Of a stretch of DNA of 64,000 nt, positions 371 through 22,147 are shown in pieces. The notes beneath the pieces were generated by a model. That model saw only the letters and a list, made by a program, of their open reading frames with translations. It did no database searches and was not told where the DNA came from. The DNA comes from Sternotherus odoratus (Eukaryota; Chordata; Testudines; Kinosternidae). The stretch covers positions 104,487,310 to 104,551,309 of the forward strand of contig JAVMKO010000006.1 in the NCBI GenBank assembly GCA_032164245.1, in the 5' to 3' direction. The translations under genes and the position numbers were made by a program. Each line of letters begins with the position of its first letter. Positions within the stretch are counted from its first letter, which is position 1.

Positions 371-837
371 TCAGTCGACTCGGAGCCTTTGAGCTACCTG
401 CCGGATATTCCCCAACCCGGCAGGGGGTAAGAGCGAGGCGGTGAGGTGCCCCACAACCCGCAGGGGGATGAGCCCCAGCGCCGGCCCCGTACACTCCCCC
501 GCCCCCGAATGTTCCTCCATCTCCTCCCAAGAGGGGCAGGGGTCTCGCTCCAGTTTGAAAACGGAGGAAAGAGATTCTAGTTCTCTACCGTCAAGCTCCT
601 GAACCAGGTCTCTGTTTGTCATGCGTAGCACGCGATAGAGCCGGTCCTTCTGCTCCCAATCCCAGCTCGGCACCAGCTCGTACAGCTTCTGCATTTTCTC
701 CACATCGGATCCCCTGGAGCTGATGCTCTCGTATTGCTCAGCGTTTAGCGTTTGCCGCCGAAGTGCCCTCAGGACTTTGTCCACATCTGTGACTCGCTGG
801 ATCAGCTGCTCTCGGTGCCGGTCGACAAAGTGTCCCC
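371..837 (-). CDS. TRIM-CARD exon 8: CARD 2 with long C-terminal tail
   Basis: Terminal exon, read in phase 1 after ctctccag. The first 80 or so residues are a well-preserved [24 protein letters not shown], then [37 protein letters not shown] and LVQELDG. The first helix is intact here, unlike in CARD 1. After the CARD, where genes A and B stop, this frame runs on for about 75 residues (starting [15 protein letters not shown]) with no recognisable domain, ending at a TGA. The tail may be real or a read-through after loss of the original stop. Confidence 0.85.
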
Positions 838-3800
838 CTGGAGAGAGACATTTTATTACAATAAATGGCAATTGCTGATTTGAGGGCTCCGCAGGGTAGT
901 GGGGGGCAGGCAAGGCCGTGACTCCACCTCCTCCCTGCCCCTGAAGACCTCTCCCAGGGTGAATTGTCCCCCAGGGTCACACAGAGAATGATTCAGTGAT
1001 TCCCCACCCCTAGGCGGGCCCTGCCTCTCTCTCTCTGGGACCAAGACGTCCTTCTCTCCCCACCCCTCTCCCCTCACCAGGAGGAATCCAGGCCCTTAAG
1101 GAGACATGAGCCGAGATGGGGGGAAATGTCTCTTATCCCAGAAAGCAGGTAGGAGGTCCCAGGTAGAGAGGAGGGGGAAGGGAAATACAACCTGACCACT
1201 GACTCTAGATACCACCCACCACTGCCTGATTTATTTCACACCCCTGCCCTCTTTGGTTAAAGCGATTGGATCTGAGGTTTGAGCCTGGGCCAAACTCCGC
1301 CCCCTCCCATATTCCGGAGGGGTTAGAATCTGACTGAATGTTACAAATACCCCAACCTACATAACAAGCCAAAGTCCTGATCCGCCCAGGACAAGTGCGT
1401 GTGAAGGTCCCATGGCCGGGAAGGGGAGCTACCGGCAGAACGGAGCCCCAGCCCAGCTCTGCACTGTGCAACCAGAGACAACTCGGTCTGGAATTGGACC
1501 CAACAGCACAAAACACTGAAATAATCTCGGCCCGGGGGGGGGGGGCAAAAACTCCAGCCAGAGAGGTGATCTCGTGTCCCCCATGGGGAGCATGGGAAGC
1601 AGATTTCCCTGATGTTGTTTATTTACCCTTCAGCTCTTCAACCAGGTCTCTGTTTGTTTCCTTCAGTGCCTGGTAGAGCCGGTCCTTCTGCCATTTGTCC
1701 CAGCTCAGCACCAGCTCATACAGCTTCCGCATCTTCTCCTGGCTGGTTTTCTCAGCGCGGATTGTCTGGTACTGCTCATCGTCCAGTATCTCCGGCAGGG
1801 GAGATGTTCTGTAGAGAAGCTGCGTCTGCTGCCTTTGGTGCCCATCGGAAAAATGTTTCTCTGAGGAGGCATTACAAATAAATCCTGAACTAATGATTTT
1901 AGAGGACGTGTGTTACATGACATGGGGCAATGGGTGGAGTTTGACCCCCAGCTTATCGTCCCTACCCCGCAACTCTGCCTCCTGTGTGGCTGGGCAGGAA
2001 ACAATGAAAAGAATTCTTCCCCTAAAGCAGGGGTTCTCAAACTTTTGTATTGGTGACCCCTTTCACATAGCAAGCCTCTGAATGGGGATTGGTCCTGCTT
2101 TGAGCAGGGGGTTGGACTAGATGACCTCCAGAGGTCCTTTCCAACCCTGATATTCTATGATTCTATGAATGCGACCCCCCTTATCAATTAAAAAGACTTT
2201 TTAATGTTTTAACACCATTATAAATGCTGGAGGGAAAGTGGGGATTGGGGTGGAGGCTGACAGCTTGTGACCCCACCCCCCATGTAATAACCACGTGACC
2301 CCCTGAGGGGTCCTGACCCCCAGTTTGGGAACCGCTGCCCTAAAGCTTCCTCCTTCGGTTGTGAATCCCCACAACCTGGACCAAACCATTGTCTGTTTCT
2401 TCCCCCTGCTCTTGGTGCAGGCATCAGATCCCGCAGGGGAGGAGGACGACCAGAGGCCACAGCGCTGCCTCCTTCTGGTGTGTGGGCACAGAGCAGAGAG
2501 GAGACAGACAGACACACACCGAATTAGACAGACGTACATACTTTTAAGGGGGTCTCTCGGAAGTGAGGGAAGCCCCCTGTGGATCCTTGTTGCTCTGTGT
2601 GCCCCAATCCAGCTTCAGTGCAAACCTGACTCCTCTGCTTCCCGGTGCATCCCGCCCTCACCTTTTTTTGGTTGCTTTTGCTGCTGGTTAGCTATAGAGC
2701 TGAGCAGGGTTTGGGGATGGATCATGCATTGAAGAGTCACCATCACTCCCCCAGCTCCTGAGCACATAGAGGAGATCATACCAACACCCAGTCTGCATTG
2801 GATGACTTCACCGTGGTACCAACACAACACGACCTTGCACTGGAACTGGGGTTTGAGAGGCGGTCGGTCAGACCCAGACGACCACCCGTCTGGACTAGAG
2901 ACTATGTTCTGTAGTATTTACAGAGTTTTCAGTGTAACAGCTCTGCCAACAGGACAGTGTCTTGTTCCCTATTTGTTGCTGTGATTAGAACAGCAGTGGT
3001 TATTTTAATGCAGAGAGTTTCTTAAGAGAGGAGGGGATGTGGTGTTTTAGATGCTGCTTGTAATGATTAGACCTGGGAGGCTGTAGAACAGGAAACAGAA
3101 AGGAGGGGGGAGGAGTTGAGCCAAGCCTTGGGGCTGGTCTACAGTAGGGGGAAGGATGGCGAAGATACTAACTTCAGCTAGGTGAGTGAGAGCTACAGAG
3201 GGGTGCAGTAGCAGCAGCTTTGTAAAGGGTTTCACTGTTGTTGTTAAAGTTTGTTAATACCTTGCCTGCCTGATACAACACTTTCCCAGTCTCCCTCCCC
3301 CGCTTACCATTCATGTGGGCTGAAGAAGAGCTCCATGTAGCTCAAAGCTGGTCTCGCTCAGGAACAGAAGTTGGTCCAATATAAGATATGACCTGCCCGC
3401 CACCCTTGTGTCTCTAATGCCCTGGCACCAACAGGGTGACAACAGCCTTGCAAACAGCTCTAGCCAATATCCCACCACTCTCAGGGAGGCTGCAGGGAAA
3501 GTAGGGTGAGCAGACGTCCCGATTTTATCGGGACAGTCCCGGTTTTTTGCTTTTTGTCCCATGTCCCAACCGTACTTTGGTCAGGACGCCCTTTTGTCCC
3601 GATTTCGGGTCAGTCAGAAGAGCGGGGCGCCAGCAGGAGCACACGGCAGCCCCCACTGCCCCAGGGCCAGGCAGAGACTGGGCGGCCAGGTCTCTGCACA
3701 TGTTATAGGGGCGGGGGGGGGGGAGGAGAGTTGCTGCTGCCGGCTTGCAGCCAGTGCCGGGCCGTCGAGGGACAGAGAGCCCACTCCCCTCCCTCCCCCC

Positions 3801-6800
3801 CCTGCAGAGACATTGGGGGGGGAAGGTGGGCTGTGCCCCCTGGCCACGGCAGGAGAGCTGCAGGGGGGGGGGTGCTGCATGCAAGCGCCCGCCAGCAGAG
3901 GGAGGCGGGGGCAGAGAGCCCCCCCAAAAAACCTGGCTCAGCCCCCCCCCCCCCCCAAGCCTCTCCCGGCCTCCCCTTGCTGCCCCTTAAACCTTCTGTG
4001 GCCCTGGAGCAGAGCGGGACAGTCAGAAGCCTCCCTTCTCTCCGCCGCAGGGTCCTAGTCCCGCCTTCTTCTGCTACCAGTGATAGGGGCGAGTGAGTGT
4101 GCTGCTGGGGGGGGGGGGGCAGGAAAGAGGGGGCCCTGCCCCAAAGCTTGCTGCTCCCGGCAGGGAAAGGGCTGAGGGGGAATCCTCCTCTCTGGCCACA
4201 GTGACAGACCAGCCTGCCTGCACCCATCCCAAACCACACCCCAACCCTCTACCAAGCCCTGTGCCCCAAACCCCTCATCTCCAGCCCCAGCCAGAGCCCC
4301 CCCTTTGCCAACCCATTGCCCTAGTCCTGAGCCCTGCCAACACCCCAAACACCTTATCCCCAGTCCCAGCCAGAGCCCCCCTGCACCCCAACCCCCTTCC
4401 CCATACTACATTACACTATGCAATATTCATTTTAAAAATGTATAGTAAGCAATGCTCTGGGAAAAGGGGAGGGGGGTGCTAGTTAAAAAATTTGCCTAGG
4501 GTGCAAAATATCCTTGAAAACATCCCCCTCCCTACCCCTCCTCCTACCCCCCGCTCAACGTGTCCTCATATTTCGCACTTGCGATCTGGTCACCCTAGTA
4601 CTACATTAGCCTTTTTCCAGTCATCCGGGACCTCCCCCGATTACCATGAGTTTTCAAAGATAATGGCCAATGGCTCTGCAATCACATCCACCAACTCCTT
4701 TAGCACCCTCAGATGCAGCACATCCGACCCCATGGACTTGTGCTCACCCAGCTTTTCTAAATAGTCCTGAACCACTTCCTTTTCCACAGATGGCTGGTCA
4801 CCTCCTCCCCATACTGTGCTGCCCAGTGCAGGAGTCTGGGAGCTGACCTTGTTCGTGAAGACAGAGGCAAAAAAATCATGGAGTACATTTGCTTTTTCCA
4901 CGTCCTCTGTCACTAGATTGCCTCCCTCTTTCAACAAGGAGCCCACACTTTCCTTGACTTTCTTCTTGTTGCTAACATACCTAAAGAAACCCTTCTTCTT
5001 ACCCTTAACATCCCTTGCTAGCTGCAACTCCAAGTGTGATTTAGCCTTCCTGATTTCACTGCTGCATGCCTGAGCAATATTTTTATATTCCTCCTTGGTC
5101 ATTTGCCCAATCTTCCACTCCTGGTAAGCTTCTTTTTTGCATTTAAGATCAGCAAGGACTTCACTGTTCAACCAAGCTGGTCGCCTGCCATATTTACTAT
5201 TCTTTCTACACATCGGGATGGTTTGTTCCTGCAACCTCAATAAGGATTCTTTAAAATCCAGCCAGCTCTCCTGGACTCCTTTCCCCTTCATGTTCATCTC
5301 CCAGGGGATCCTGCCCATCAGTTCCCTGAGGGAGTCAAAGTCTGCTTTTCTGAAGTCCAGGGTCTGTATTCTGCTGCTCTCCTTTTTTCCCTGTGTCAGG
5401 ATCCTGAACTCTACCATCTCATGGTCACTTCCTCCCAGGTTCCCTCTACTAACTCTTCACGGTTTGTGAGCAGGCCAAGAAAAGTTCTGCCCCTAGTTGG
5501 TTCCTCCAGCACTTGCACTAAGAAATTGTCCCCCACACTTTCCAAAAACTTCCTGGATTGTCTGTGCACTGCTGTACTGCTCTCCCAGCAGATATCAGGA
5601 TGATTGAAATCTCCCATGAGAACCACGGCTTGTGATCTTGTAACTTCTCTTAGTTGCTGGAAGAAAGCCTCATCCATCTCATCCCCCTGGTCTATAGCAG
5701 ACTCCCACCACCACATCAGCCTTGTTGCTCACACTTCTAAACTTAATCCAGAGACTCTCAGGTTTTTCTGCAGTTTCATACCGGAGCTCTGAGCAGTCGT
5801 ACTGTTCTCTTACATACAATGCAACTCCCCCACCCTTTCTGCCCTGCCTGTCCTTCTTGAACAGTTTATATCCATCCATGACAGTGCTCCAGTCATGTGA
5901 GTTATCCCATCAAGTCTCGGTTATTGTGGAAATGGGACACGGGAGGGAACGTTAACAGCTGAAATCACCAAAACGTGCTTTGCAAGGTTAATGTCAATGG
6001 GGTCTGTTCCGCTCTCCTGCTTGGACATTTTCTCTGGGGATTCCAGGGACAAAAATGAGCAAGTTTTCCCATCTTGGCTGCCAGTCCTCACAATGACTAT
6101 CTACCCCAGGGGTTCTCAAACTATGGGGCACGTCTCCCAAGCGAGTCACGGGAATGTGTCAAGGGAGGCATGACCTGGGTGGGGCGCATGAAGGAGGGTC
6201 GTGCCCTCTGGGAGGTGGGGCTAAAGGGGACAGATGGAACTCTGCTACCCAGGTTCAGACTTTCCTCCCCCCACCACAATCCCTCACTTGCGGGCAGCGG
6301 GGCTCCAGCTTTCAGCCCCAGGTGGAGTAGCACAGAAGTAAGGGTGCCAGTGCGGCGATACGTCTGTTGTGAACAGTGATGTTGACACATATCACTTTTC
6401 ACATGCCCACACTTACTTCTGTGCTGCTGCTGGTAGCGGCGCTGCCTTCAGAGCTGGGCACCCGGCCAGCAGCCGCCGCTCTCTACTCTGCCTTCAGAGC
6501 TGGGTGTCAGTCTATGTACTTGTGGGGCTGGAGGGGGGGGGTTAAATTGTGACAGACCCAAAGAAGGGGGCCGGATGAAATACATTTGAGAACCGCTGCT
6601 CTACACTATTATGGTCATCACTTTTATGAACTGATGATAAATCTTGTACAAAGCATGGTTTCTGGGGTATCGTGAAAAGTCATTATTTGCTGAATATTAT
6701 TGTCCTGTTAAAATGGATCAACATTGTGGACAGAGTTATGAAATTTTGCGGAATGTTTGTTACTGAAATATGCCATGAAGCTGAAAAACGCCCTCAGAGC

Positions 6801-9800
6801 TGGGTGCCCTGTAAATCTGAAGGACTAGCTCCTCAGAGTCAGGTGCTAAGTGTCCATTCATTGCTTAGCCGGCCATTCACCAGAGAGGAGTTGTGAATTA
6901 GAAATTTACTATTCACGTGAAAGATGGTTGGAAGCCACAGACTGACTGTCACCTGCCCACCAGCTGGGGGTGAGCCTCAAAGAAGATAGAGGTATAAAAA
7001 CACAAGGGAGAGTGGCCTCCATTTTTTACCTCTCCTCCCTCACCTTTTTGGAAGGCAATAAGATGGTTTGAGAGACAAGGGACAAAGTGGACAAATCTAT
7101 ATAATGTGGAGGAGGAGAAAAGGATCCCACAGCCCATCAGACAAATCTCAAGGATGAGAAACCCTATCACTGTCTCCAGTGTGGGAAAGGGTTCATTCTG
7201 AGATTATAATTTGCGATACATCAGACAATCCATAACAGAGAGAAACCCCTTCAATGCTTGGACTGTATGGAAAGCTTCTGTAACTGCTCAGATCTTAATA
7301 ACCACAGGAGAAGCCACACAGGCGAGAATCCCTCTCAATGCCGCAAGTGCGGGAAATGTTTCAGTGGGGAGTCAGCACTAATTATGCATCAGAGAATCCA
7401 CACAGGAGGGAGACCCCAAAAATGCTTAGACTGTGAGAAAAGTTTCACACGGAAATCAGGCCTTGTTACACATCAGGCAATCCACACTGGAGAGAGACCC
7501 CATAAGTGCTTGGACTGTGGGAAGAGTTTCACACAGATCAAATCTCATTAAATATGGGAGAATCCACACAGGAGCTAAACTTCATAAATGCCTTGCCAGT
7601 GGAGAAAGCTTCATTCAGCGATGACACCTCATTAAGCATCAGAGAATCCACAAAGGTGTGAGATCTGAGCTCGCCCGTCAGTGACCCACACAACAGAGAG
7701 ACTTTGAAGGTGGGGAAAGGTTTAATTTGGTGCTCCCGGAGTAGGAGGCACCTGCAAATCCGCACAGGGAAGAAAGCTCCCAGATGTTCTCGGTCTGGAA
7801 AATGCTCCAAGTGGAGGTAACACCATGTTGGACATCAGAGACTCCTCCACACAGCAGGGAAATTCTCTCAGGGCCCTGACTAAGCCATAGTAATCAACTT
7901 CCTCATTCCTCCTTCCCACACGCATCGGGAGCGTTTAGCTCCCAAGGATCCAGCTGCCCAGCGCTGGGGTGAGGATCCAACAGCAGCAGAGCAGCAGCTG
8001 GTCAGTGACAGGACACCCCAGGCACCGGAGGAGAAGCCCCGCTCAGCCCCTCCTCCCTGCTGCAGCCCTGGCTGCTGAGCTGATGGGGCACAGGTGGGGG
8101 AAGGGAGAAAGAGAAACTCCTCCCGCCTGGCTGAAGTTCCCCCCTCTCCCTTCCCCTCCCAGCCGGGATCCCCCTGCCATGGAGCTGAGAAGAAGGACAC
8201 TTGGGCCAGACCCCACCTTCACTCTAGACACCTGTCCCCATCCCCCATCTTCCACCAGCCCCTAGGCTGGGCTCCCCCACTTACCTGGAGCCGTTCCCTG
8301 CAGCAGGGGTGTCTCTGGGGGCTGGTAATGCCTCCCCTCCCTGAATCCCCCAGGGCATGGGGAGCAGGGAGATGCAGCAGGAAAAGAGGCAGAAAAGCAG
8401 CTAGATAGACGGGAGTACCCCAGGGGACTGTCTGTGACTCCATGGTCAGGCTGTTCTGGTGCTTGACTTTTCCCACTTGATACCTAGTAGGTGAAATCTA
8501 AATACAGGACACAGCCAGTGGGAGGTCTGTGCCCTGGTTTATAACTGTTTGCTCGGAGACTGTGCTGACGTTCCTGAGCTGCTGCACACAGCTTGATAGG
8601 AGAACTGAACCTGGGTCTCCCACGGACCAGCTGAGTGCTCTCAGCATGGGGATAAGAGTTATAAGGCAGGTGATATCCCCCAAACCTCATAGAATATTCG
8701 GGTTGGAAGGGACCTCTGGAGGTCATCTAGTCCAACCCCCTGCTCAAAGCAGGACCAATCCCCAACTAAATCATCCCAGCCAGGGCTTTCTCAAGCCAGG
8801 CCTTAAAAACCTCTATGGAAGGTACTACCACGTCCCTAGGTAACCCATTCCAATGCTAGACCACCCTCCTAGTGAAAAAGTTTTTCCTAATATCCAATCT
8901 AAACCTTCCCAACTGCAACCTCCTCCTCCCCCTCCTCATTTCCTGTGAAGGGAGGCAGGTGCTGCCTACCTCATTCCAGCAAGAAACGCCTGAGCCCACC
9001 TGACCTGGCTCCCTGCCCAGTGAGCTGGCCTGGATCCTAAGGAGCTGCTCTGTCCTGGGCGCCTGAGACTGAGCAGGGATGTCACTGAAGTTCCCCGGTC
9101 TCTCTAAAGAAACGCACCAAAGGCACCAACTTTTGCAGGCAGATGCTCCCCATGTTCCAGTGCCCCTGGATCTTCCCACTGTTTAATGGGTTATTTTTAG
9201 GGCTGTGTGTCTCATGGCCACTGTGGATTTGGTTGGTAACTTTAGTTACCATCTCATCAAGATGTTTTCACAGGAATTTTCTCATAATTTAAAGACAATC
9301 TCCGGCTGCAAACTCACCCTGTCTGTCTGCTCCTTGGGGTTTCCCTCTTGGAGTCTCCAGTGCAGATGGCAGAGTGTCTGGAGGGGGAAAGGAGAAAAGA
9401 GACGAGATTACAGACTTTGATATTTATAAGAGTGTCCTCACACTGAACACATAGAACTGTGTGTTCATCATGACAGAAGCAGACCGAAAGGCCAAGACAC
9501 ACACACAGGCATTTAATATAAACTAATCGGAAACCTTCTACTTCCTCCCTCATTCAGGCATCTCCCAGCAACGGAACCAACATCCCTGCAGCCTCACAAC
9601 CATCCCAGGACAGACAATCTGTCAGGGAGATTTACTTTTCCCCTCCTCATCCCCTCCCACCCCTCAGACTCCAGTTGGTTTGTCTCGTTCACTTGCTGCC
9701 TTTTGCCGTAACCTAGACCCAGATCGTACAAAGACTTTGTCATAAAAGGAACTTTCCCACTTGGGTCCCGTTAGCCAGCATCATGTTGTACTATGGACAC

Positions 9801-12800
9801 TTGACAAAATTACCAGACTAGTGATGGACATTGGCGGCGGCGGAGGGAGGATGGCTGTGTCATTCAGTCATCATTCAACCCCGTAAAATAACACACAATT
9901 TTCCACACTGAAGAAAACATAAACTAGCTACCTAGTTATTAAATAATAATAAATTCAACTCACTTTAGTGTTTTTGAATGTACCTCACCGCCGCAGTCAA
10001 TACTTTTTTTTGTGGGATGGGGGCATTGAAATAAATACTTATCCTCTAAGGTGCTACAAGTATTCCTCGCTTTCTATCCTAAAATAGGGTGACCAGACAG
10101 CAAGTGTGAAAAATCAGGACAGGAGGTAGGGGGTAATAGAAGCCTATATAAGAAAAAGATCCCCAAATCAGGACTGTCCCTATAAAATCAGGACATCTGG
10201 TCACCCTATCCTAAAACCATATTTCAGTGCATTGTTGTTATGACTTTTTTATTTTTGTTTAAATAATATGTCTAATGGGAGGATGAATGTGAGAGTGTGT
10301 GTGTGTGAGAGAGTGTGTGTGTGTGTGAGAGAGAGTGTGTGTGTGTGTGTGTGAGTGTGTCCCACCTCTAGACTGCTTCCCCCATTCCTCTCCCCTTTCT
10401 GTGTCCCTTACATGGACGATCCCCCATCATGTCACAGGATGTGGGAAGTGGGGGAGGGCGGGGAGGGTCTCTCAGTGGAGCAGAGTTTCCCATCCCCTCA
10501 CTGTGACCAGGGCACCCCCCTCCAGGCAGGGGTTATCCCGGGGTGGGTGGGAACCTCCTCTGTCCCCTGATCAGGACATAGGGACAAGCTCTGGGCAGGA
10601 GTCTGTTGTGAGCAGAGGCCAGGGGAAGAACATATTCTGTGGAGGGGGCTCATCTCTTGTGGCTCCCCAAAGTGGCTTCCCTTGTCCCTTGTCTCTTCCC
10701 CCTGTCCCTCATCTCTGCTGGAACAGTGCTGGGGAGGGGGAGCAATGAGGGGCTGCAGCTAGGCTGAGGGGCGCTGGGGGAAGGAATTTTTCACCAACTC
10801 AAATTGCCAGAGACCATGAGGGGTTTTTTTTGTCCCTTCCTCTGTCATATGGGGCACGTTTCATTTACAGATGTTAAACTAGAATAAATGGTGGATTCTC
10901 TGTAACTTCAAGTCTTTAAATCATTATTTGAGGACTTCAGTTTAGGGGTAAATTACAGGAGTGGGTGGGGAGGTTCTGTGCAGGGCCGGCGACAGAAATT
11001 TTGGGGACCCCTACTCTGATCGTTTGTGCCCCCCCCCCCGCTGCCGCCCTGCCCCCCCCCACCCCCCCACCTGACCCGGCCCACCCACCCAACCTAATCT
11101 CCTCCCCCAGCCTAACCTCCTCTCCTCCGCACCCATCCCTGCCTGGCCCACCCCACTGTTGGGGGTGATCTTCCTTTACCCCCGCCCAGCCTCCCCCCAT
11201 CTAACCGCCTTCCCTCCCCCACCCCTGCCTGGCCCGGCCCATCCCACCGAACCTAACCTCCTCCCCCCTCCCACTCCCAACCCAGCCTCCTGCCCCCCCC
11301 ATGCCTGACCCGCCCAGCCCAGCCTCCCCCCCACCAAACCTCCTTCCCTCCCGCACCCACGCCTCACCCACCCAGATTCCAGCCTAGTCTCCTGCCCCCC
11401 TCCCCGCCCACCCAGCCTGGCCTCCCCCCCCCCACCCCCTTGCCTGCCCCGAGCCTCCCCAGCCACGCCGATGAATGAACCTCCCGAGGCAGGGGTGAAC
11501 TCACCGCAGAGCCCACCCGCCTGCCCAAAGGCCCCCCCGGAGCCACCGCCCCCCGAGTGGGGCCGGGCCCCCTGCCCCCTTACCTTGGTGAGGCCGGCTC
11601 CCCTTGACCCCTTTTCGGCGCCTCCGCTCCGCTCCGCCACCGTCAGCGCCGCACACCACCAGGGCGGCCGGGCGCGCTTCCCCGGGTCCCCGCTGTGGTC
11701 GCAGTCTGCCGTCAGCCTCAGCCGTGCGGTGCGTGCGGGCGCTTGCCGCGCTACAGCGCAGTGACGGGGTGGCCGGCGGCGCCCGGGATTGCACGCGGTC
11801 AGCCGCGCAACACATGCGCCGCGCCTCTGCAGAGGTCCGAGCATCCGCACTACATCAGGGGCCCCCCTTAAGTCCGGGGCCCAGTACAGTTGTCCCCCTT
11901 GTCCCCCCCGTCGCCAGCCCTGGTTCTGTGGCCTACAATGTACAGGGGGTCAGAGTAGATGGATCATGATGGTTCCTTCTGACCTTAAAGTCTAGGAGTC
12001 ATTTCTTACGTGGTAATTGTAATTGAAAGTGATGTTTTTGGTGCAAAGGTTTGAATCAATCAACCTGAGTGTTTTGGACCCAAGTGTCTGGCATTCTCAC
12101 CCAACGATTAAACAGAAGCATCATCTCAGTGTGAACCAATTGTCCAGCACCATTCTCTTCCCACAGTCTCAGAGGATCATCCCAATTTCCATTCCTAGAT
12201 CCCTTCTAGGTACCTTTGAACTTCCCCAGAGTCTCCGATAGCACAAGAGTTGTCTGGAAGAAATCGCTGACTCGCTCTTCCAGTTCAGGAGAAATCTCCT
12301 CTGGCTGCTGGAACTTCCCCTTCTCACACCTGGAGAGAAACAATTTCACGTGATTGTATTTCATTATGTGACTCATTATAAGTTCTGGCTCATGAGTCGC
12401 TGCTCTAAGGGGCTTGGGGTTAGAATTCCTTGACTCTTCCCAGCCTCAGAGCAGGTGAGACACAGCCCATGGCTGTAGAAGCTTCCCCCCAAAGGACCCA
12501 TTAGTATTCTTCAACTCTGGTCTGGAGAGATCAGCTCTGGGGACAAAATGGGAATTGAGTCTCTAGGGCCAATTCACTCCTTGGCCTCCATTCTCTGAGG
12601 GACAGGAGGTTCCCAGGTGAAGTGCTGTAGAAATCTTCCTACTAGCAGCTAGACTGAGACACCAACTGACCCCTCCCCAGCTCATTCCACCAGGTCTCCA
12701 AACAGTCCTCAGGCGGTAAAGACTCTTGACCACTGCTGCCCTGGGCTGAACGGTAACCAGGACCCAGCAGTGACTGGCCCATATTCCATCCCCACAATCC

Positions 12801-15800
12801 TGAGCCAGCCAGTCCCCCAGGGAGGTGACAGCTCTGGAAAATACTTGAGGTCCGGCTTCCCCACTGTATGGAGAATTCCAGAGTCCTCTGTGCCAGAGTG
12901 ACAACCGCAGGATAAGATCATCTGAGAGATTTGTGTCCAGAATGTGACCTTCCCCACACACGTTGCTGTGGAGGTTCAATCCTCTCACCATCTCCATGCT
13001 CTCTCCCAGCATTGCCAAGTACAGTAAAACCTCGATTTAACGGACTTTGGATGCAACGGACAAAATTTTTAAGAAAGTCTGATGCATCCGAAATCCGTTT
13101 GTCGAGGGCTGGCTGTGGGCTCCCTGCTGCCGCTGGGGTTTCAGCTGCGGGCGGGCTGCCGCCCGGCTCCCAGCAGCAGGCGGGCTGGCTGGCGGGTCCC
13201 GGGAGCCAGGACCCGTGCGGGCTAACTGCCCGCTCCCTGCTACCACCGGGGTTTCAGCTGCGGGCGGGCTGCCACCCGGCTCCCAACAGTGAGTGGGATG
13301 GCTGGCAGGTCCCAGCAGCCGGGACCCGGGCGGGCTGGCTGGCTGACGGCTCCCGCACGGGTCCCAGCAGCCAGGACCCGGGCGGGCTGGCTGATGGCTC
13401 CCGGCTGCCGCCCGAGTCCCAGCAGCCGGGACCTGGGCGGGCTGGCTGACGGCTCCCGGCTGCCACCCGGGTCCCGGCAGCGGGCGGGCTGCCGATCTGC
13501 CTCCCTGACCCTGTGGTGGGCGGGCTGCTGCTCTGACAGCTCATTTTTTTATTATTATTATTAAATAACGGACTTTTGGATTTAACGGACACCCCCTCGC
13601 CCGAATTAGTCCGTTAAATGGAGGTTTTACTGTATGTGTGGGAGTGGGAGAGAGTCACGTACCTGCTCAAGGTGCTTCTGACATCCTAAAGGAGAGAGAG
13701 AGGAGAGAGAGAAGAGAGATTAACAAAAAATCTCAGTCCCACTTGACACACACTTGGGATTCCAGGAAAGGGATTTTGCAACTACAGGGAAAATCAGCCC
13801 TGCCCTGACCCCGGGACAATGGTTTCACTGAGCTAATGGTGCTTTTCAATCTCTAATATCAATGTGTCTGTGAGTCTGCAAAGAACAATTGTCATTCACA
13901 GGTCAGCAATGCACATGCCGAGTGACACTGAGATCTCTGACTGCTGGACCCCAGTGCCGGTAGTTCAGGAGCTGTCCTGACCCTGTGTTGGGAGTTGGGA
14001 TGTTTCTAGCTCAGTCTCACCTGCAGGAATTTACTCGCTGGTTTCTGACACGTCCACTCCAGCTCACTGATCTGCTCACTGAGACGGGAAATCTCCTCCG
14101 AGAGTCGGGTGATATTTTCATTCCCTATCTTCACTATCTCCTTGTCCAGCTCTGCCAGCCGGGCCAGCAGGAGTCGCTCTTGTTCCTGAAGGAACTGCCG
14201 GAGTTGGTGAAATTCAGACACAATCTTCTGCCTCTTGGTTTCTGTCCATTTCTATAAGAAATAAGGAAAGGGCTGGTCAGGAACATGGAGGGAGACTGGT
14301 GACCTTTCATACAGTCTTACAAGAGAGAGTTTCTTTACAATCTCTAACACATCTGTGTAGAGACCAGGATATGAGCCATCAGGACAACTGCTCAGATCTG
14401 TAGTGGGAAGTCAGGAATGAAAGCCAAAGTCAGAGCTGGAGTTAAAGTCAGGATCTCACCAAGCGTTGGGCCTATAGTCAAACTCAGGACTTATGCCAAA
14501 GACTGAGCCAGTTTCAGTGTCTGGAGTCACATGTGGGGTCAGGACTGGAGTCAGAGACAGTCAGCCACGTGAAGGGTCAAGCCACAGTCAGACAGCAGTA
14601 CTGCAGGTCAAACCTGACCCAGGGCCAAGCCAGAGTCAGGGGCCAGTCCAGCAGCAGACCAGGAGTTCACTCCGTTGTTTGGACAACTTCCCGTGACTCC
14701 TGCTGGTGTAATTCGTGCATCCAAACGTCTGCTCCAATCAGGAGCTTCCTAGGCAGGTCCTCTGGGGGGCCAGAGCTTCACTAGCCCCTCCCCTGCTGGC
14801 TCTGGAGAGCGGTTGGTTGTAATGAGAGTCTGTGTGGACTGAAGTTCAAAACCCACCATTCTTCACATCCTGACACGTGACTCTACATTGTGATCACAAG
14901 AGGGAGGATTTTCTTACAGCTTCCCATTGGGCCCCAATCTCTTGGGGCTGTCTCCAGGTCTACTGGGATATAGTCAGTGCAGTTTGGGAGATATTCTGTG
15001 AAAGCCACAAAGGGGTAGCAATTAACTCATTAATTAAAATGAGATGCCGCAGAAGACGCTTTTGTCCTGCTCCAGTGAGAGAACATTTGTGATATGCACA
15101 CATGTACACACCCACACCCACACATGCACAATATCGCATGATCATGGAGAAACACACACAAGGCCGCAGAGAAATGTACTAATAAACATCCCTCCCAGCT
15201 CCATGTCCGAGCAGGTGAAGAACAACAGGCACCTACCAGATATTCCCGGCTTCTCTTCTCTCCAGTCACTTTAAATCCCAGCAGCTTTTCTCTCTCTTCC
15301 CTCAGACTCTTCAAACTGACTTGTATTTTTTCCTGACAAACAGAAATGATTTGCAGGGTTTATTATGAGGGTTGTAGGGGGGTGGATGAGGTGTTTTTAC
15401 AGTCAGTCTTCCTAGATAGACTAGGTGGCTATGGCAATCTCTTCTGCTTGCCCAGCTCCTGTTGGTAAGAGAGTTACACACGACTCAGTTCTGGGGAACA
15501 TACTCTCTCCTGAGCTCTGTGGAAGCTTGAAAGCTTGTCGTTCACCCATAGAACCTGGCCATGAGCAGATATCACTTCACCTACCTTGTCACTCTAATAT
15601 CCCGGGACCAACACAGTTACAACAATATTGGGTACAACAGTGGGTCTTTCTAGAGGTAAGACACCAAGGAAATGAAACCTTCTTTATGGAAACTGGGTGT
15701 GTTTTGGATTCAGATTGTTTGCGGTTATTCCCTCCACTTTCTCCATCGAGCTGAATCAGTGGAAAACTGGTGTCCCATGGCCGTGAATCTATAAAACTGT

Positions 15801-16827
15801 AATTGAGAATATTTAACAAATAATTATACCAATCCCAGAAGCCACCGGACCAGCCATATCGACTGGGATGCTCAAATGAATCCAACTCCATTGACTTTCA
15901 GCCTTGTCCCCCTGGGGATTGGACTGGTTGGACAGCATTGATCGAAGGACTGAGGCAAACCCCATTAGATGTGTTGGTTTGTGTTAGGAACAGCTGGGGT
16001 TTGCCCTAGTGCTGTCCTAGCCCCTTTCCGTGGCAATGGCGTCTGGGTGGCTCCCCCAAAGTCCCCAGCAAAGATCCCAGAAGCGGTGGATTCTGGGAGA
16101 TTTCCAAAGGCTGCCAGGTGGGACCAATGGAGCCACTTTGGCGGATCCTTGCCCATGAACACACTAGAAGGGGTCAGACTGGCACATGGTCCATGCTGCC
16201 CAGGGGTTACTTTTGCTGAAGATAAGTCTAATCCCAGTGGTATGTGGCTTGGACCTGAGCTGTCTGGGGTCCTTGTGGGTGTGAACTCAAGGTGCTTGGG
16301 ATCCCCACAGTGTTCAGCCCAGTGATCTCCTCTAGTCCAGACAGTTACACCATTAACCTGAAATTAACATCCAAAGTTATTACCCATTACACTAGATAGA
16401 AATACTGTACCTTGTACTCCTGAGCAGCTTCCTGTATGGGAACCACCCTGTGAGCGCGGTGAGCCCGGGATAAGGTGCATATCACACAGATGGGGGTTTG
16501 ATCCTCTTCACAGAACAGTATCAGAGCTTGTCGGTGTTCCCCGCACACCCTCTCCTCTCCTCCTTTCTTTGCTGCCTGTAAACTCAGCCGTTTGGCGATT
16601 TCTAGGACATTTGCCAGCTGCCTGTTGGGCCTGAGGTTTCTCTGGTGCACAGTTTTTCCGCACTGAGGGCAGGAGGCGGCTGTAGCAGATCCCTCCCAGA
16701 ACTGGCTGATGCAGGCTCGGCAGAAATTGTGCCCACACTCCAGCGTGACGGGTTGTGTGAAATACTCCAGACAGATGGGACATGTCAATTCCTCCTGGAG
16801 ACTTTCCACGGGGCTCTCTGCAGCCAT
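371..16827 (-). CDS. TRIM-CARD-CARD gene (RING, B-box 2, coiled coil, two CARDs), 8 exons
   Basis: Predicted E3 ubiquitin ligase of the TRIM family whose C-terminus is two CARDs instead of B30.2/SPRY. Exons on the minus strand are 16827-16411, 15332-15237, 14251-14021, 13685-13663, 12329-12214, 9377-9318, 1860-1627 and 837-371. Each junction has AG acceptor and GT donor, phases match throughout, and the total of 1644 nt is a multiple of three (547 residues plus stop). The first six exons have the 96, 231 and 23 nt lengths usual for TRIM genes. The hinge exon and both CARD exons all start and end in phase 1, so the join is frame-neutral. No B30.2 domain is visible between 1 and 9300. The alternative is two genes: a TRIM gene that lost its last exon and a separate CARD gene lacking its start. 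Domain calls are firm; the 7.4 kb splice from hinge to CARD 1 is inferred. Confidence 0.66.
1627..1860 (-). CDS. TRIM-CARD exon 7: CARD 1
   Basis: A 234-nt exon (78 codons, phase 1 to 1) between cctcctcag and gtaaat. It encodes a CARD of the ASC/NLRP1/CARD8 type: EKHFSDGH at the start, then [36 protein letters not shown] and a closing LVEELK. Helices 2 to 6 align easily with the CARDs of genes A and B. The first helix is poor: five residues are missing and the usual QLIQRV heptad is replaced by QQTQLLYR. No stop interrupts it, and no long frame starts with an in-frame ATG, so it is easily missed. Confidence 0.82.
2028..2337. mobile_element. hAT-type non-autonomous element with nested CR1 tail
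   Basis: The element begins CAGGGGTTCTCAAAC and ends GTTTGGGAACCGCTG, an inverted repeat typical of hAT-Charlie elements. It is flanked by a perfect 8-bp duplication CCCTAAAG (2020-2027 and 2338-2345). Bases about 2078-2168 are a CR1 3' end in plus orientation, inserted later. Confidence 0.85.
2346..3500. other. Intronic sequence of the TRIM-CARD gene
   Basis: No coding feature is recognised. About 3308-3440 matches a phrase repeated elsewhere in the window (gaagaagagctc, gttggtccaat, ctctaat), also near 15575, 54550 and 55645, so it is an interspersed repeat of unknown class. Confidence 0.4.
3502..4600. mobile_element. DNA-transposon-like repeat with GC-rich interior
   Basis: The left end agggtgagcagacgtcccg and right end gatctggtcaccct are the inverted ends of a short repeat seen complete at 10085-10210. 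Here they are about 1.1 kb apart, with poly-G/poly-C-rich sequence between. Long open frames in this interior come from base composition and are not genes. Confidence 0.5.
4606..5960 (-). mobile_element. CR1 LINE fragment (endonuclease and start of reverse transcriptase)
   Basis: Two minus-strand frames carry CR1 ORF2 protein: 5879-5411 has endonuclease sequence ([31 protein letters not shown]) and 5417-4641 has the linker to reverse transcriptase ([43 protein letters not shown]). The frames are broken and the rest of the reverse transcriptase is absent. It lies in the large intron of the TRIM-CARD gene. Confidence 0.9.
6107..6598. mobile_element. hAT-type non-autonomous element
   Basis: Ends are CAGGGGTTCTCAAAC and TTTGAGAACCGCTG. 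The flanking 8 bases (atctaccc and ctctacac) match at 6 of 8, as expected for an older insertion. Confidence 0.65.
6600..7140. repeat. Interspersed repeat, class unknown
   Basis: About 6617-6790 (ttgtacaaagcatgg, gttactgaaatatg) resembles segments near 38440-38590, 51120-51300 and 58070-58290. This suggests one dispersed family, perhaps an LTR. No gene is seen. Confidence 0.4.
7150..7640 (+). pseudogene. C2H2 zinc-finger array, broken
   Basis: About six C2H2 fingers are readable, with linkers such as [16 protein letters not shown] and [16 protein letters not shown]. Stops and frame changes occur in the first finger (near 7207), after TQIKSH (7552) and near 7622, so no continuous array can be made. 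A decayed extension runs to about 7860. It sits antisense in the TRIM-CARD intron between the hinge and CARD 1 exons. I see no KRAB or SCAN exon. It is probably a retrocopy or a remnant of a neighbouring zinc-finger gene. Confidence 0.85.
7870..8686. other. Intronic sequence, no gene seen
   Basis: Moderately GC-rich sequence without recognisable protein similarity or splice-bounded conserved exon. Short open frames on both strands look like composition effects. Confidence 0.35.
8687..8940 (-). mobile_element. CR1 3' end
   Basis: This is the reverse complement of the CR1 3' tail, recognised by ggaccaatccccaactaaatc, aggacctctggaggtcatc and tagtgaaaaagtttttcct. It is truncated at its 5' side. 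Confidence 0.9.
9318..9377 (-). CDS. TRIM-CARD exon 6: short hinge exon
   Basis: A 60-nt exon (20 codons, phase 1 to 1) containing [14 protein letters not shown]. Related TRIM genes carry a similar hinge exon just before the B30.2 exon, so this marks where B30.2 should follow. The donor is CAGG|gtgagt. No B30.2 exon is found downstream; the next phase-1 coding exon on this strand is CARD 1. Confidence 0.78.
9380..10084. other. Intronic sequence, no gene seen
   Basis: AT-rich in its second half. The last part (about 10036-10078) is a short minus-strand piece of the repeat also found at 51305-51420 (gctacaagtattcctcgctttc). Confidence 0.35.
10085..10210. mobile_element. Short inverted-repeat DNA element (about 126 bp)
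   Basis: It starts tagggtgaccagacagc and ends catctggtcaccctat, giving inverted ends with a possible TA target duplication. Related copies lie at 3502-4600, 18076-18145 (fragment) and 36165-36290. Confidence 0.7.
10285..10360. repeat. (TG)n/(GA)n microsatellite
   Basis: Alternating runs of TG and GA over about 75 bases. Confidence 0.95.
10361..10972. other. Intronic sequence, no gene seen
   Basis: No recognised coding or repeat feature. A plus-strand open frame of 137 codons here lacks any known motif. Confidence 0.35.
10981..11922. mobile_element. GC-rich hAT-like element, copy 1 (942 bp)
   Basis: The element begins CAGGGCCGGCGACAG and ends with the complementary CGCCAGCCCTG. A perfect 8-bp duplication GTTCTGTG flanks it (10973-10980 and 11923-11930). 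The left half is C-rich repeat sequence. The right part (about 11470-11870) is CpG-rich and shared with copy 3. On the minus strand it reads like an exon ending CACCAAG|gtaagg at 11584. No transposase is encoded. It lies in the TRIM-CARD intron between exons 6 and 5. Confidence 0.88.
12214..12329 (-). CDS. TRIM-CARD exon 5: linker after coiled coil
   Basis: A 116-nt exon read in phase 2 to 1. It starts [20 protein letters not shown] and ends ETLGKFK, a sequence typical of the segment between coiled coil and B30.2 in TRIM proteins. Acceptor ctctccag and donor gtacct flank it. Confidence 0.88.
12330..13019. other. Intronic sequence, no gene seen
   Basis: Unrecognised sequence between TRIM-CARD exon 5 and the Tigger-like element. 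Confidence 0.35.
13022..13632. mobile_element. Tigger/pogo-like non-autonomous element with GC-rich minisatellite core
   Basis: Ends CAGTAAAACCTCGATTTAAC and the complementary GTTAAATGGAGGTTTTACTG lie between TA dinucleotides (13020-13021 and 13633-13634), as in Tigger/pogo elements. The core (about 13085-13540) consists of imperfect GC-rich repeats of about 50-60 bp built from phrases such as cagcagccgggacccgggcgg. A related copy is at 58545-59263. Confidence 0.8.
13663..13685 (-). CDS. TRIM-CARD exon 4: 23-nt microexon
   Basis: A 23-nt exon (DVRSTLSR minus its last base) follows ctctttag and precedes gtacgt. TRIM genes of this class nearly always have a 23-nt exon at this point. It shifts the phase from 0 to 2, which exon 5 then accepts. 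It is too short to be seen as an open frame. A Tigger-like element ends only 30 bases beyond its donor. Confidence 0.85.
14021..14251 (-). CDS. TRIM-CARD exon 3: main coiled coil
   Basis: A 231-nt exon (77 codons, phase 0 to 0), the standard size for the TRIM coiled-coil exon. It contains [19 protein letters not shown] followed by leucine/isoleucine heptads such as [17 protein letters not shown]. Donor CTGCAG|gtgaga and acceptor ttatag are both good. Confidence 0.92.
14400..14700. repeat. Degenerate AGTCAGG-rich sequence
   Basis: Short words such as agtcag, ggagtca and gccagagtcagg recur irregularly. It lies in the intron between TRIM-CARD exons 3 and 2 and shows no coding sign. Confidence 0.4.
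15237..15332 (-). CDS. TRIM-CARD exon 2: start of coiled coil
   Basis: A 96-nt exon (32 codons, phase 0 to 0) reading [19 protein letters not shown] and ending SREYL. The length and position are those of the second exon of most TRIM genes. Charged heptads show the start of the coiled coil through which TRIM proteins form antiparallel dimers. Confidence 0.9.
15340..16400. other. Intron 1 of the TRIM-CARD gene
   Basis: No gene is seen. About 15575-15645 (cacctaccttgtcactctaatatcccgggaccaacac) belongs to the interspersed repeat also present near 3400 and 54600. Confidence 0.4.
16411..16827 (-). CDS. TRIM-CARD exon 1: RING finger and B-box 2
   Basis: The exon encodes 139 residues from an ATG in strong context (GCC before and G after). 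The reading frame continues upstream but has no better ATG there, so this start is chosen. Residues about 16-60 form a complete C3HC4 RING beginning TCPICLEYF, with [11 protein letters not shown] in the middle and SCPQCGK at the end, as expected for an E2-binding ubiquitin ligase. Residues about 93-134 form a B-box 2 ([17 protein letters not shown], then two HxxH-type histidines). All zinc ligands are present. The donor after QEYK is in phase 0. The sequence resembles the TRIM7/TRIM39/TRIM27 group. Confidence 0.93.
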
Positions 16828-16969
16828 GGCTCCCCCTGGGTAGAGGAACAGGGTTAGTTTCACTTTCCTGAGCTCACCCTCTGCCCCGCCTGCAGCAGCG
16901 AGGGGTGTTTCCCTCCCTGGAACTGACTCAGGCTGTTTGCTGAGCAGGAAGGACCCGACCGATTTCACC

Positions 16970-18339
16970 CCTGGAGGCTTTAGTGAAAAAATGTAGCACT
17001 AGGGCTCCAGTCCTGTGATCAGCCCCTGTGCTGGTGGGGAGGGTCACTGAGGGGTCCCCTGTGAGGATGGGCCTGCAGGGGCAGGAGCTGTGTGTCTAAG
17101 GCGGGAGAGTCAGGCTCCGCAGAATTGTTTTTTATACTGTAAAATTGTGCTAGAAAATGTTTATTTTAATCATTTTTTATATTGATTGATTTAACTTTCA
17201 CAGTCACACAACACTCTGGGTTTGAAGCATTTCATTCCCGCTACGATGTTCATGGTTGTGGGAAATGATGGTCAGACAATATTTGTTCAGACCAGAACTA
17301 TTTAATGACACTGAGATTCAAAAAGTTAATGCTTTATAACGTTACAATGGTCTGTGAGCAGGTAAATCTCCTCCCTCCCCCAGCAGAGCCCCCAGGGCAG
17401 TAACCGGCACCTCTGCCCCCCCGGACTGAGGCTGAGAGTCCATCTGATGGTGGCTCAGGGACCTGTGGAACATACGTGGACTGAGTCTCATTGTACGTTG
17501 CTGTTTATACTGGTCAAGGATCCGTCCCATGACTTCAAGCAGCAGAGGTGCTGACCCCATGGGTGCTCTGGAGCTTAAACCCCCATGGAACAAATATAGG
17601 GGGAACTCAGCACCCACCAGCCACAGCTGTTCTGTGGGGCTGCCAATGAGCTGTTTGGTGTCTGGGGGAGGTGCCTGGGGAGGGCACAGAGAGGTTGAAG
17701 CAGGGGCAGGAAGAGGCAGACAGAAGGCAAGGCCTTAGGGGAGGAGGCGGAGTGTGGTTGGGAAGAGGCAGAGTGAGGGTGGTGCCTTATGGGAGGGGCA
17801 GAGTGGCGGCGGGGCCTTGGGCAGAGTGGGGGTGGAGCACCCCCGGGGAAAATTAAAAGTCAGTGCCTATGGTAAGCAGAGACCTAGCAGTGAAAGGCCC
17901 AAATAATATCCCCAGTGTCTCCAGACAGCCAACACCCCAGGGCCCACCCTCTACTCCAGGATCCAGCCCAGGGACCCTAATGGCAGCAGGTGTTGGTAGC
18001 TGACCTTCCACTGCCAGAGTTGCTACATTTCCCTGGGCCACATCCCCACAGGTCTCCTGCTTCTCCCGTCTTCATTATTACCCCCTACCCCCTGTCCTGA
18101 TTTTATACACTTGCTCTCTGGTCACCCTAGGTCACCCTATCAGCCACCCTCCCCACTCTGACTTCAGAGCTGGGTGGCTCATGTCCCGCCCCCCCCCCCC
18201 CCAATACATTCTGCCTACCTCACAGGATAAACGCATTAAAGATAGCAAGGTGCTCAGATTCAGTGGTTTTGTGAAGTTTGTGAATTCAATGTATTTGTGA
18301 ATACAACAGCTTTTGTATTCCAGGGCACCTCATCTTGGA
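16970..18339. other. Region upstream of the TRIM-CARD gene
   Basis: This is the start of the divergent interval between the TRIM-CARD start (16827) and gene A (21850). I see no gene and no clear TATA or CpG-island promoter. A fragment of the agggtgacc repeat lies at about 18076-18145, and a poly-C run near 18187-18202. Confidence 0.35.
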
Positions 18340-21849: not shown

Positions 21850-22147
21850 ATGGAGGGGGCGGCAGGCGGCATGGAGGGGCCGGGGTCGGGGAGACGCCGC
21901 CTGCTGCAGATCCTGACAGGGCTGGGGCAGGACGAGCTCCGGAGATGGAAGGAGAAGCTGAGCAAAATCCCACTGAAGGAGGGATACCAGCACATCCCCC
22001 AGGCCCTGCTGGAGGGAGCCGATCCGGGGGCCCTGGCCGAGCTGCTGATCGGCTACTACGGGGAGGAGTATGGGGTGCAGCTGGCTTTACTAGCCCAGAC
22101 TTTCTGCCGTGCAGAACAAGCGGAAATGGATGTCTTAAGGACAACTG
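21850..22147 (+). CDS. Gene A exon 1: pyrin domain (PYD)
   Basis: The exon reads [20 protein letters not shown], then [31 protein letters not shown]: a complete six-helix PYD of about 90 residues, expected to bind other PYDs such as that of ASC. Two in-frame ATGs occur, at 21850 and 21871, within a duplicated GGAGGGGGCGGCAGGCGGCAT phrase; the first is used here but the second is equally possible. The donor ACTG|gtgagt is in phase 1. Confidence 0.93.

Follow-up and report, generated by a model that had tools for sequence, protein, structure and literature searches.

We analysed a 64-kb stretch of Sternotherus odoratus DNA, referred to here as the window, in which eight exons lie on the minus strand between positions 16827 and 371. 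Their coordinates are those given in an earlier note on this DNA, as are the sum of 548 codons (1644 nt), the matching phases throughout and the phase 1 at both CARD joins, and all internal borders are AG/GT. The 260 kb that we examined around the locus contain zero N.

The first six exons have the layout of a TRIM gene. Exon 1 (16411..16827) encodes a RING that keeps all eight C3HC4 ligands and a B-box 2 whose C/H ligands are readable in the translation, exons 2 (15237..15332, 96 nt) and 3 (14021..14251, 231 nt) encode the coiled coil, exon 4 (13663..13685) is a 23-nt exon, exon 5 (12214..12329, 116 nt) encodes the hinge, and exon 6 (9318..9377, 60 nt) is in phase 1 at both ends. Two CARD exons follow, CARD1 (1627..1860) and CARD2 (589..837, 249 nt), each of phase 1-1. 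A Pfam search of the predicted protein recovered RING, B-box and two CARD stretches with no SPRY, and a PDB search with the 547-residue model found likeness to TRIM proteins and to the CARD of NLRP1/ASC.

A truncated TRIM copy

The order of RING, B-box and coiled coil (RBCC), together with exon sizes equal to those of an array of TRIM copies on another contig (C12), places exons 1-6 in the TRIM family, the TRIM_CC match in Pfam falling under the cut-off (E 0.012). The nearest relative is L029, an intact and complete copy in that array which also has a counterpart of the 23-nt exon 4. The RING-B-box-coiled coil-hinge arrangement is shared with turtle class IV TRIMs annotated as 'zinc finger protein RFP-like', identity in the TRIM part reaching 83% among the matches listed. 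Most of these relatives lie on other contigs and end in PRY-SPRY, continuing from exon 6 into B30.2, whereas the Sternotherus copy stops before it and so lacks the C-terminal PRY-SPRY/B30.2 of class IV (C-IV). The absence of a B30.2 near the TRIM, which the earlier note had pointed out, is borne out by protein queries over the 260 kb, which gave no credible exon: full-length P0006 and P0009 found none there at E 1e-4, and four B30.2 pieces found no credible match over 98 kb at E up to 5. The only weak, repeated match, at 16351-16112 (E 0.05-0.6), lies inside intron 1 in a stretch common to L029. The last DNA homology to L029 is at 9027..9107 (L029 8277-8358) and ends about 100 bp before the L029 B30.2 match, which starts at L029:8457. 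Since homology to an intact copy stops short of B30.2, the copy here is truncated.

At its other end, the copy carries its own upstream flank (16828..17271), common to L029 in blastn comparison, and could be a separate short gene. Within this flank, 17114-16828 differs from L029 at only 10 of 263 aligned bases; six intron pieces, each of at least 130 bp, show 13.6-30.6% differences.

With B30.2 lost, the copy could be a piece of a pseudogene that landed in the cluster and evolves neutrally, but we consider this improbable. Across 943 coding nt aligned with L029 there is neither a stop nor a gap and the splice sites are intact, while a crude simulation put the chance of an open frame at 0.0003-0.011 for neutral divergences of 0.05-0.10. 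The dN/dS of the TRIM exons against the nearest copy is 0.49 (Fisher p 0.0009), and that of exon 1 is 0.37 (p 0.016) when the majority of 8 close copies serves as the reference and 0.44 (p 0.051) with 20 copies. On the other hand, the copy may have moved recently, constraint having acted earlier in the array, and it deviates at 8 of 124 conserved sites, the second highest rank among 115 sequences. Because of these high deviations, constraint on the TRIM may have been relaxed.

An NLRP1/CARD8-like sensor running beyond the window

Sequence and orthology establish that an NLRP1/CARD8-like gene, which we call gene A, has the CARD pair as its 5' part, and the proposal of the earlier note that the protein ends in two CARDs does not hold. 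CARD2 closes at a phase-1 donor (GACG/GTAGAG, 589/588), located at the residue at which turtle relatives part from CARD2 and continue with different sequence. Because this donor precedes them, the stop at 371 and the read-through tail at 371..588 that had been called coding are both probably part of an intron; the next exon lies at C6:104476015, outside the window. We therefore rejected a gene end at CARD2, given the donor and the open, in-phase exons downstream. The remainder of gene A is found on the same strand about 12-24 kb past CARD2, open and in phase; it opens with a pair of linker exons, continues through ZU5, UPA and a further two exons, and closes with a CARD. In our model CARD2 has to skip a linker exon that has the donor AT here, not GT, a point against the model.

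Pfam identifies the ZU5-UPA module (FIIND 1.6e-49, UPA-FIIND 5.8e-20) followed by a C-terminal CARD. This arrangement, together with a conserved autoproteolysis histidine and F/S site, is that of NLRP1 and CARD8. In an alignment with 6x6c, the autoproteolysis residues of NLRP1 are kept in gene A as H604 and F630/S631, H604 being aligned to H1186, the autoproteolysis histidine of human NLRP1. The cleavage site of the human protein is given as F1212/S1213 in PMC7483925. Gene A differs from NLRP1 and CARD8 in having an N-terminal CARD pair, in lacking NACHT and LRR, and possibly in carrying a TRIM E3 in cis.

Turtle proteins with the architecture PYD-CARD-CARD-...-FIIND-CARD (Chrysemys LOC101950806, Gopherus LOC115651398) have CARD1, CARD2, linkers, FIIND and a final CARD orthologous to those of gene A. 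The Chrysemys protein (P0170) aligns to gene A exon by exon, with identities of 67% in CARD1, 72% in CARD2, 84% in ZU5, 85% in UPA and 86% in the last CARD. A third half-CARD exon of these proteins was not found between CARD2 and the linkers of gene A. In the CARD profile of 85 positions the match of CARD1 is limited to 29-83, and its structure model has four helices of at least 8 residues and one of 4 at low confidence (mean pLDDT 66), which does not amount to a complete six-helix death fold. The weak N-terminal half is common to relatives, and their having the same truncated form led us to reject decay of CARD1 in Sternotherus alone.

The closest turtle orthologues of gene A begin with a PYD and have no TRIM, and the PYD of P0170 sits where the TRIM exons lie here. 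At E up to 5, five PYD queries detected no PYD in the minus-strand interval that separates the TRIM from CARD1, and other N-terminal pieces of 12 related proteins found nothing in the same interval at E up to 0.5, with matches for 4 of the 12 listed only from 60 bits. By sequence comparison, then, a truncated copy from the C12 array, consisting of the upstream flank and exons 1-6 without B30.2, occupies the place of the PYD exon of gene A.

It is very unlikely that the first exon of gene A is instead a same-strand PYD located some 61 kb upstream (63449-63249), with the TRIM inside an intron. Although this PYD is most like those of gene A orthologues and their kin (57-63%), a same-strand FIIND-CARD gene directly downstream of it (46.2-41.1 kb) is a simpler owner: that gene has no other recognised first exon, and its CARD most resembles P0167, a protein of the gene A type (78%). 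A gene on the opposite strand also lies between the PYD and gene A. We rejected this PYD as the first exon of gene A in favour of its nearer owner.

The proposed junction between exon 6 and CARD1

The TRIM exons and the sensor exons are, as read from the DNA, complementary orphan ends. The TRIM copy lies directly upstream of CARD1, shares its strand and fits it in phase. The join of TRIM to CARD pair proposed in the earlier note is plausible, but not with the CARD pair as the end of the protein. Joined, the two sets give a frame of 15 exons on one strand, with AG/GT at all internal borders, all phases matching, 2562 nt including the terminal stop, and 853 residues in which Pfam recognises RING, B-box, three CARDs, FIIND and UPA-FIIND. 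We give close to an even chance to a single gene in which exon 6 is spliced to CARD1, encoding a RING-B-box-coiled coil-CARD-CARD-FIIND-CARD sensor. We infer this splice from phase, order and missing alternatives. Phase agreement alone was rejected as proof of fusion: exon 6 of L029 ends in the same phase and all three CARD exons of gene A start in phase 1, so that the fit is weak evidence, since an exon 6 of this type would suit any of them.

Two neighbouring genes are the chief alternative, also a serious prospect, if somewhat short of even: a B30.2-less (or dying) TRIM with its own promoter, ending in intron 6, and an ordinary FIIND-CARD gene A whose first exon is short or unrecognised and lies between 9318 and 1860 or elsewhere. 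The upstream flank of the TRIM was copied along and is little changed, and some turtle RFP-like proteins are predicted without PRY/SPRY (P0058, P0118). A Pelodiscus relative of gene A (P0177) is annotated without a PYD and starts near CARD1. Against this, the CARD1 exon has an acceptor and no in-frame ATG ahead of the CARD core. Gene A must therefore have a phase-1 exon upstream, for which TRIM exon 6 is the only recognised candidate nearby. Polyadenylation-type motifs point both ways, as AATAAA is absent between exon 6 and CARD1 (zero, with 1.4 expected), whereas four ATTAAA separate them, in keeping with two genes. Also consistent with two genes, no protein combining RING or B-box with CARD or FIIND was present among 48 matches, nor among the 120 listed of 1825 and of 1028. 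The TRIM family and the sensor family lie on different contigs in 16 other turtle species. Among the literature titles listed, none concerns a TRIM-FIIND or TRIM-CARD fusion.

A sensor with a possible built-in E3 ligase

If exon 6 is indeed spliced to CARD1, the FIIND would cleave itself at F630/S631 and the coiled coil would dimerise the N-terminal fragment. Clustering or disturbance could then lead the RING to ubiquitinate its own fragment, the proteasome would clear TRIM-CARD-CARD-ZU5, and the freed UPA-CARD would nucleate caspase-1. The whole scheme would be the 'functional degradation' of NLRP1 with the E3 ligase built in. A self-igniting sensor, in which a RING E3 captured from the TRIM array and fused to an autocleaving FIIND-CARD gene could ubiquitinate and remove its own inhibitory half to free UPA-CARD, is a plausible reading, if less likely than not.

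Some parallels exist in known proteins. In pyrin (TRIM20) a TRIM frame also meets a death-fold domain, with an N-terminal PYD and no RING; here, by contrast, there is a RING, and the death folds come after the TRIM. Zebrafish Gbp4, like gene A, has a FIIND. It has a C-terminal CARD and, at the N-terminus, a module outside the NLR class (PMC4932187), but that module is a GTPase, compared with the TRIM here. As described in PMC7483925, the N-terminal fragment of NLRP1 is destroyed after ubiquitination, which frees UPA-CARD, and NLRP1B depends on a separate E3 ligase, UBR2.

Annotated reptile FIIND-CARD proteins have an N-terminal PYD, C2H2 fingers or a p53-type domain, and a fused gene A would add TRIM to these N-terminal swaps on a FIIND-CARD chassis. 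Tagging of the N-terminal half for degradation activates NLRP1 and CARD8, and the responsible ligase is known for some triggers only. If the fusion is real, an inflammasome sensor with its own E3 ligase would put functional degradation to a test provided by nature, and exon capture would be shown to have re-wired an inflammasome trigger.

The CARD pair and its gene

An earlier note had read, on one strand of the window, eight exons for a TRIM protein apparently ending in two CARDs. We found all eight exons on the minus strand, with AG/GT internal borders and 548 codons in total, and a Pfam search of the prediction returned RING, B-box and, in two stretches, CARD, with no SPRY. The proposed C-terminus did not stand. 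As judged from sequence, CARD1 (1860-1627) and CARD2 (837-589) are part of an NLRP1/CARD8-like gene, here gene A, because in-phase exons lie downstream, orthologues match and the FIIND is NLRP1-like. Left of the window, on the minus strand of the same contig (C6), gene A continues through linker exons at C6:104476015 and C6:104474214, a ZU5 exon at C6:104473385, a UPA exon at C6:104470571, two further exons at C6:104467490 and C6:104466474, and a final CARD exon (C6:104463704-104463448) that ends in a stop; all phases are compatible if CARD2 is spliced at its own donor. The sequence examined (C6:104370001-104490000 and 104550001-104630000, merged with the window into 260 kb) contains no N.

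Exon by exon, identity to isoform X5 of Chrysemys LOC101950806 (P0170) is 67% for CARD1, 72% for CARD2, 70-76% for the linkers, 84% for ZU5, 85% for UPA, 86-89% for later exons and 86% for the last CARD; Gopherus P0173 and Pelodiscus P0177 match every one of these parts too. Mauremys P0134 also couples CARDs to a FIIND, and is weaker support because that FIIND is nearer other FIIND genes of the cluster. In a PDB search, human NLRP1 (6x6c) aligned with the gene A FIIND at E 2.3e-78, including the CARD, and its self-cleavage His and F|S pair are retained. A small linker exon near C6:104476567, with a counterpart in relatives, has AT in place of the expected GT donor, so CARD2 must splice to the linker exon that follows, which leaves the frame intact. 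This altered donor counts against reading gene A as a straightforward copy of its ancestor.

The closest protein relatives found with both TRIM-CARD-CARD and CARD-only queries are mainly from turtles. Among all 48 matches to the CARD region (residues 315-476), the best-scoring was a many-CARD Dermochelys protein (P0121, 51%), and the nearest by identity were turtle PYD-CARD-CARD proteins (Chrysemys P0122, 71% across the whole CARD region; Mauremys P0123 and Trachemys P0127, 77% over 85%; Natator P0130 and Lepidochelys P0131, 67%) and Malaclemys P0132, which continues into FIIND (78% over 83%). These turtle proteins share the weak N-terminal half of CARD1 and, compared as proteins rather than exon borders, pass from PYD into CARD1 at the same residue (...EKH) at which the acceptor lies in this gene.

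A PYD-FIIND-CARD gene at 21889-38183 (plus strand), the counterpart of the NLRP1-like Pelodiscus protein P0166, stands head to head with the TRIM. Loci L012-L015 (C6:104405405-104413443, plus; C6:104433964-104423678, minus) are FIIND genes apparently followed by PYD, not CARD, an arrangement also seen in annotated turtle proteins P0134 and P0178. At C6:104379215-104394456 (plus; L009-L011), nine sites in a row match the CARDs of P0121. As annotated, gecko proteins P0192 (Eublepharis) and P0135 (Gekko) combine a p53-type DNA-binding domain (PF00870) with CARDs, and P0192 additionally has FIIND and a final CARD.

A TRIM copy truncated ahead of its B30.2

In the TRIM encoded by exons 1-6 (16827-9318), the RING retains its full set of eight zinc ligands, and B-box C/H ligands, assigned by the usual ligand pattern, are readable at 95, 98, 106, 109, 114, 117, 123 and 126. 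Across the 1.76 Gb genome, the window copy is the single exon 1 match on C6; two lie on contig C2 and all others on C12 (150 scored of 472 candidates). SPRY matches are mostly on C12 as well, with one on C6, at 97.3 Mb, and none near the window (150 scored of 456). A big RFP-like TRIM array fills two blocks of C12 (1.5-12.5 and 34.2-37.3 Mb), and solitary copies lie on C2 at 64.4 and 218.5 Mb.

We compared the window copy with one whole array copy, L029 (C12:36649600-36659500), and with exon 1 of 19 more. L029, the nearest by exon 1 (91%), is a complete copy whose B30.2 match lies at L029:8457-8969. Its blastn homology with the window runs, interrupted, from 17271 to 9027 across exons and introns, and ends at L029:8358, about 100 bp short of the B30.2; a separate, repeat-like match comes next, at 8542-8451 of the window. 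The full-length proteins P0006 and P0009 matched only the TRIM exons in the 260 kb (E 1e-4). B30.2 pieces of four RFP-like proteins, searched over 98 kb at E up to 5, gave only matches of E at least 0.05 apart from exons 5 and 6, which one query extending into the hinge matched at E 0.003 and 0.043. By these comparisons the TRIM is truncated ahead of its B30.2, a domain that was not visible to the earlier note either; no credible match occurs in the regions searched.

Constraint on this copy is probably relaxed, to judge from its many departures at conserved sites: 8 of 124, second among the copy and 114 of 120 listed homologues, with 61 of 314 departures overall against a median of about 10%. 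Exons 1-6 differ from L029 with dN 0.094 and dS 0.191 over 314 codons (ratio 0.49, Fisher p 0.0009), figures that span the time since the split from the array, not since the move to C6. For exon 1 the ratio is 0.37 (p 0.016) when the reference is the majority sequence from 8 close copies and 0.44 (p 0.051) when it is that from 20; six array copies treated alike give 0.09-0.62 and 0.28-0.63, respectively. The 943 coding bases hold no gap or stop against L029 (open-frame chance 0.0003-0.011 at divergences 0.05-0.10 in a crude neutral simulation), whereas intron and flank pieces, biased towards similarity because they were chosen from blastn matches, show 408 differences in 2248 bases and 27 gap events. 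Directly upstream of the TRIM start, 17114-16828 differs from L029 at 10 of 263 bases, intron pieces of at least 130 bp differ at 13.6-30.6%, and exon 1 dS is 0.12, lower than in exons 2-3 (0.22-0.24); the low upstream divergence may reflect promoter constraint or gene conversion.

A possible TRIM-FIIND fusion

We tentatively predict, at a chance a little under even, that exon 6 is spliced to CARD1, making a TRIM-gene A fusion. The two lie on one strand, 7.5 kb apart with no sequence gap; exon 6 lacks a B30.2 to which it could be spliced; CARD1 carries an acceptor and no in-frame ATG before its core; and the joint would form a Glu codon, as in relatives. Between them the minus strand holds no AATAAA (four ATTAAA are present), a search there with 12 related proteins found none of their other N-terminal pieces, and tblastn found no PYD near CARD1. 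A PYD at 63449-63249 resembles those of gene A orthologues but is an unlikely first exon for gene A: directly after it stands a same-strand FIIND-CARD gene (63449-41140, minus; linker 47.1 kb, ZU5 46.2 kb, UPA 44.2 kb, CARD 41.4 kb) with no other recognised first exon, which probably begins with this PYD.

That TRIM and gene A are two separate genes is also a serious possibility, if slightly further below even: gene A may start from a first exon without a recognisable domain, and no TRIM-CARD/FIIND protein appears among the matches listed. The top single-TRIM matches to the 476-aa TRIM-CARD-CARD query are 'zinc finger protein RFP-like' proteins of at most 83% identity, mostly with PRY-SPRY, and none of the 120 has a CARD in its Pfam annotation (best 120 of 1825); for the joined 853-aa query, none listed combines RING or B-box with CARD or FIIND (best 120 of 1028). 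TRIM and CARD genes sit on different contigs in the 16 turtle species with listed matches for both families (Chrysemys, Trachemys, Malaclemys, two Mauremys, two Gopherus, Chelonoidis, Chelonia, Caretta, two Lepidochelys, Natator, Carettochelys, Pelodiscus and Macrochelys), as judged from the size of the single longest contig per cluster, some of them short scaffolds, which makes this a mere proxy for separate chromosomes.

The interval between TRIM and CARD1 also holds a remnant of C2H2 zinc fingers, lying in more than one frame (7135-7877, plus), and open frames (4641-5909, minus) resembling parts of a CR1-type LINE endonuclease and reverse transcriptase. The annotation of Chrysemys P0187 combines PYD, zinc fingers, FIIND and CARD.

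According to PMC7483925, NLRP1 and CARD8 cleave themselves, and proteasomal destruction of the N-terminal half releases UPA-CARD. Alongside the demonstrated domains, order, phases, catalytic residues, orthology and truncation, we propose that the TRIM part of a fusion would dimerise, that the protein would ubiquitinate itself, and that UPA-CARD would then be set free. Our literature search found no paper title on a TRIM and CARD/FIIND combination. The component parts are already known; if spliced as predicted, the gene would be a novel variation on the FIIND-CARD sensor.
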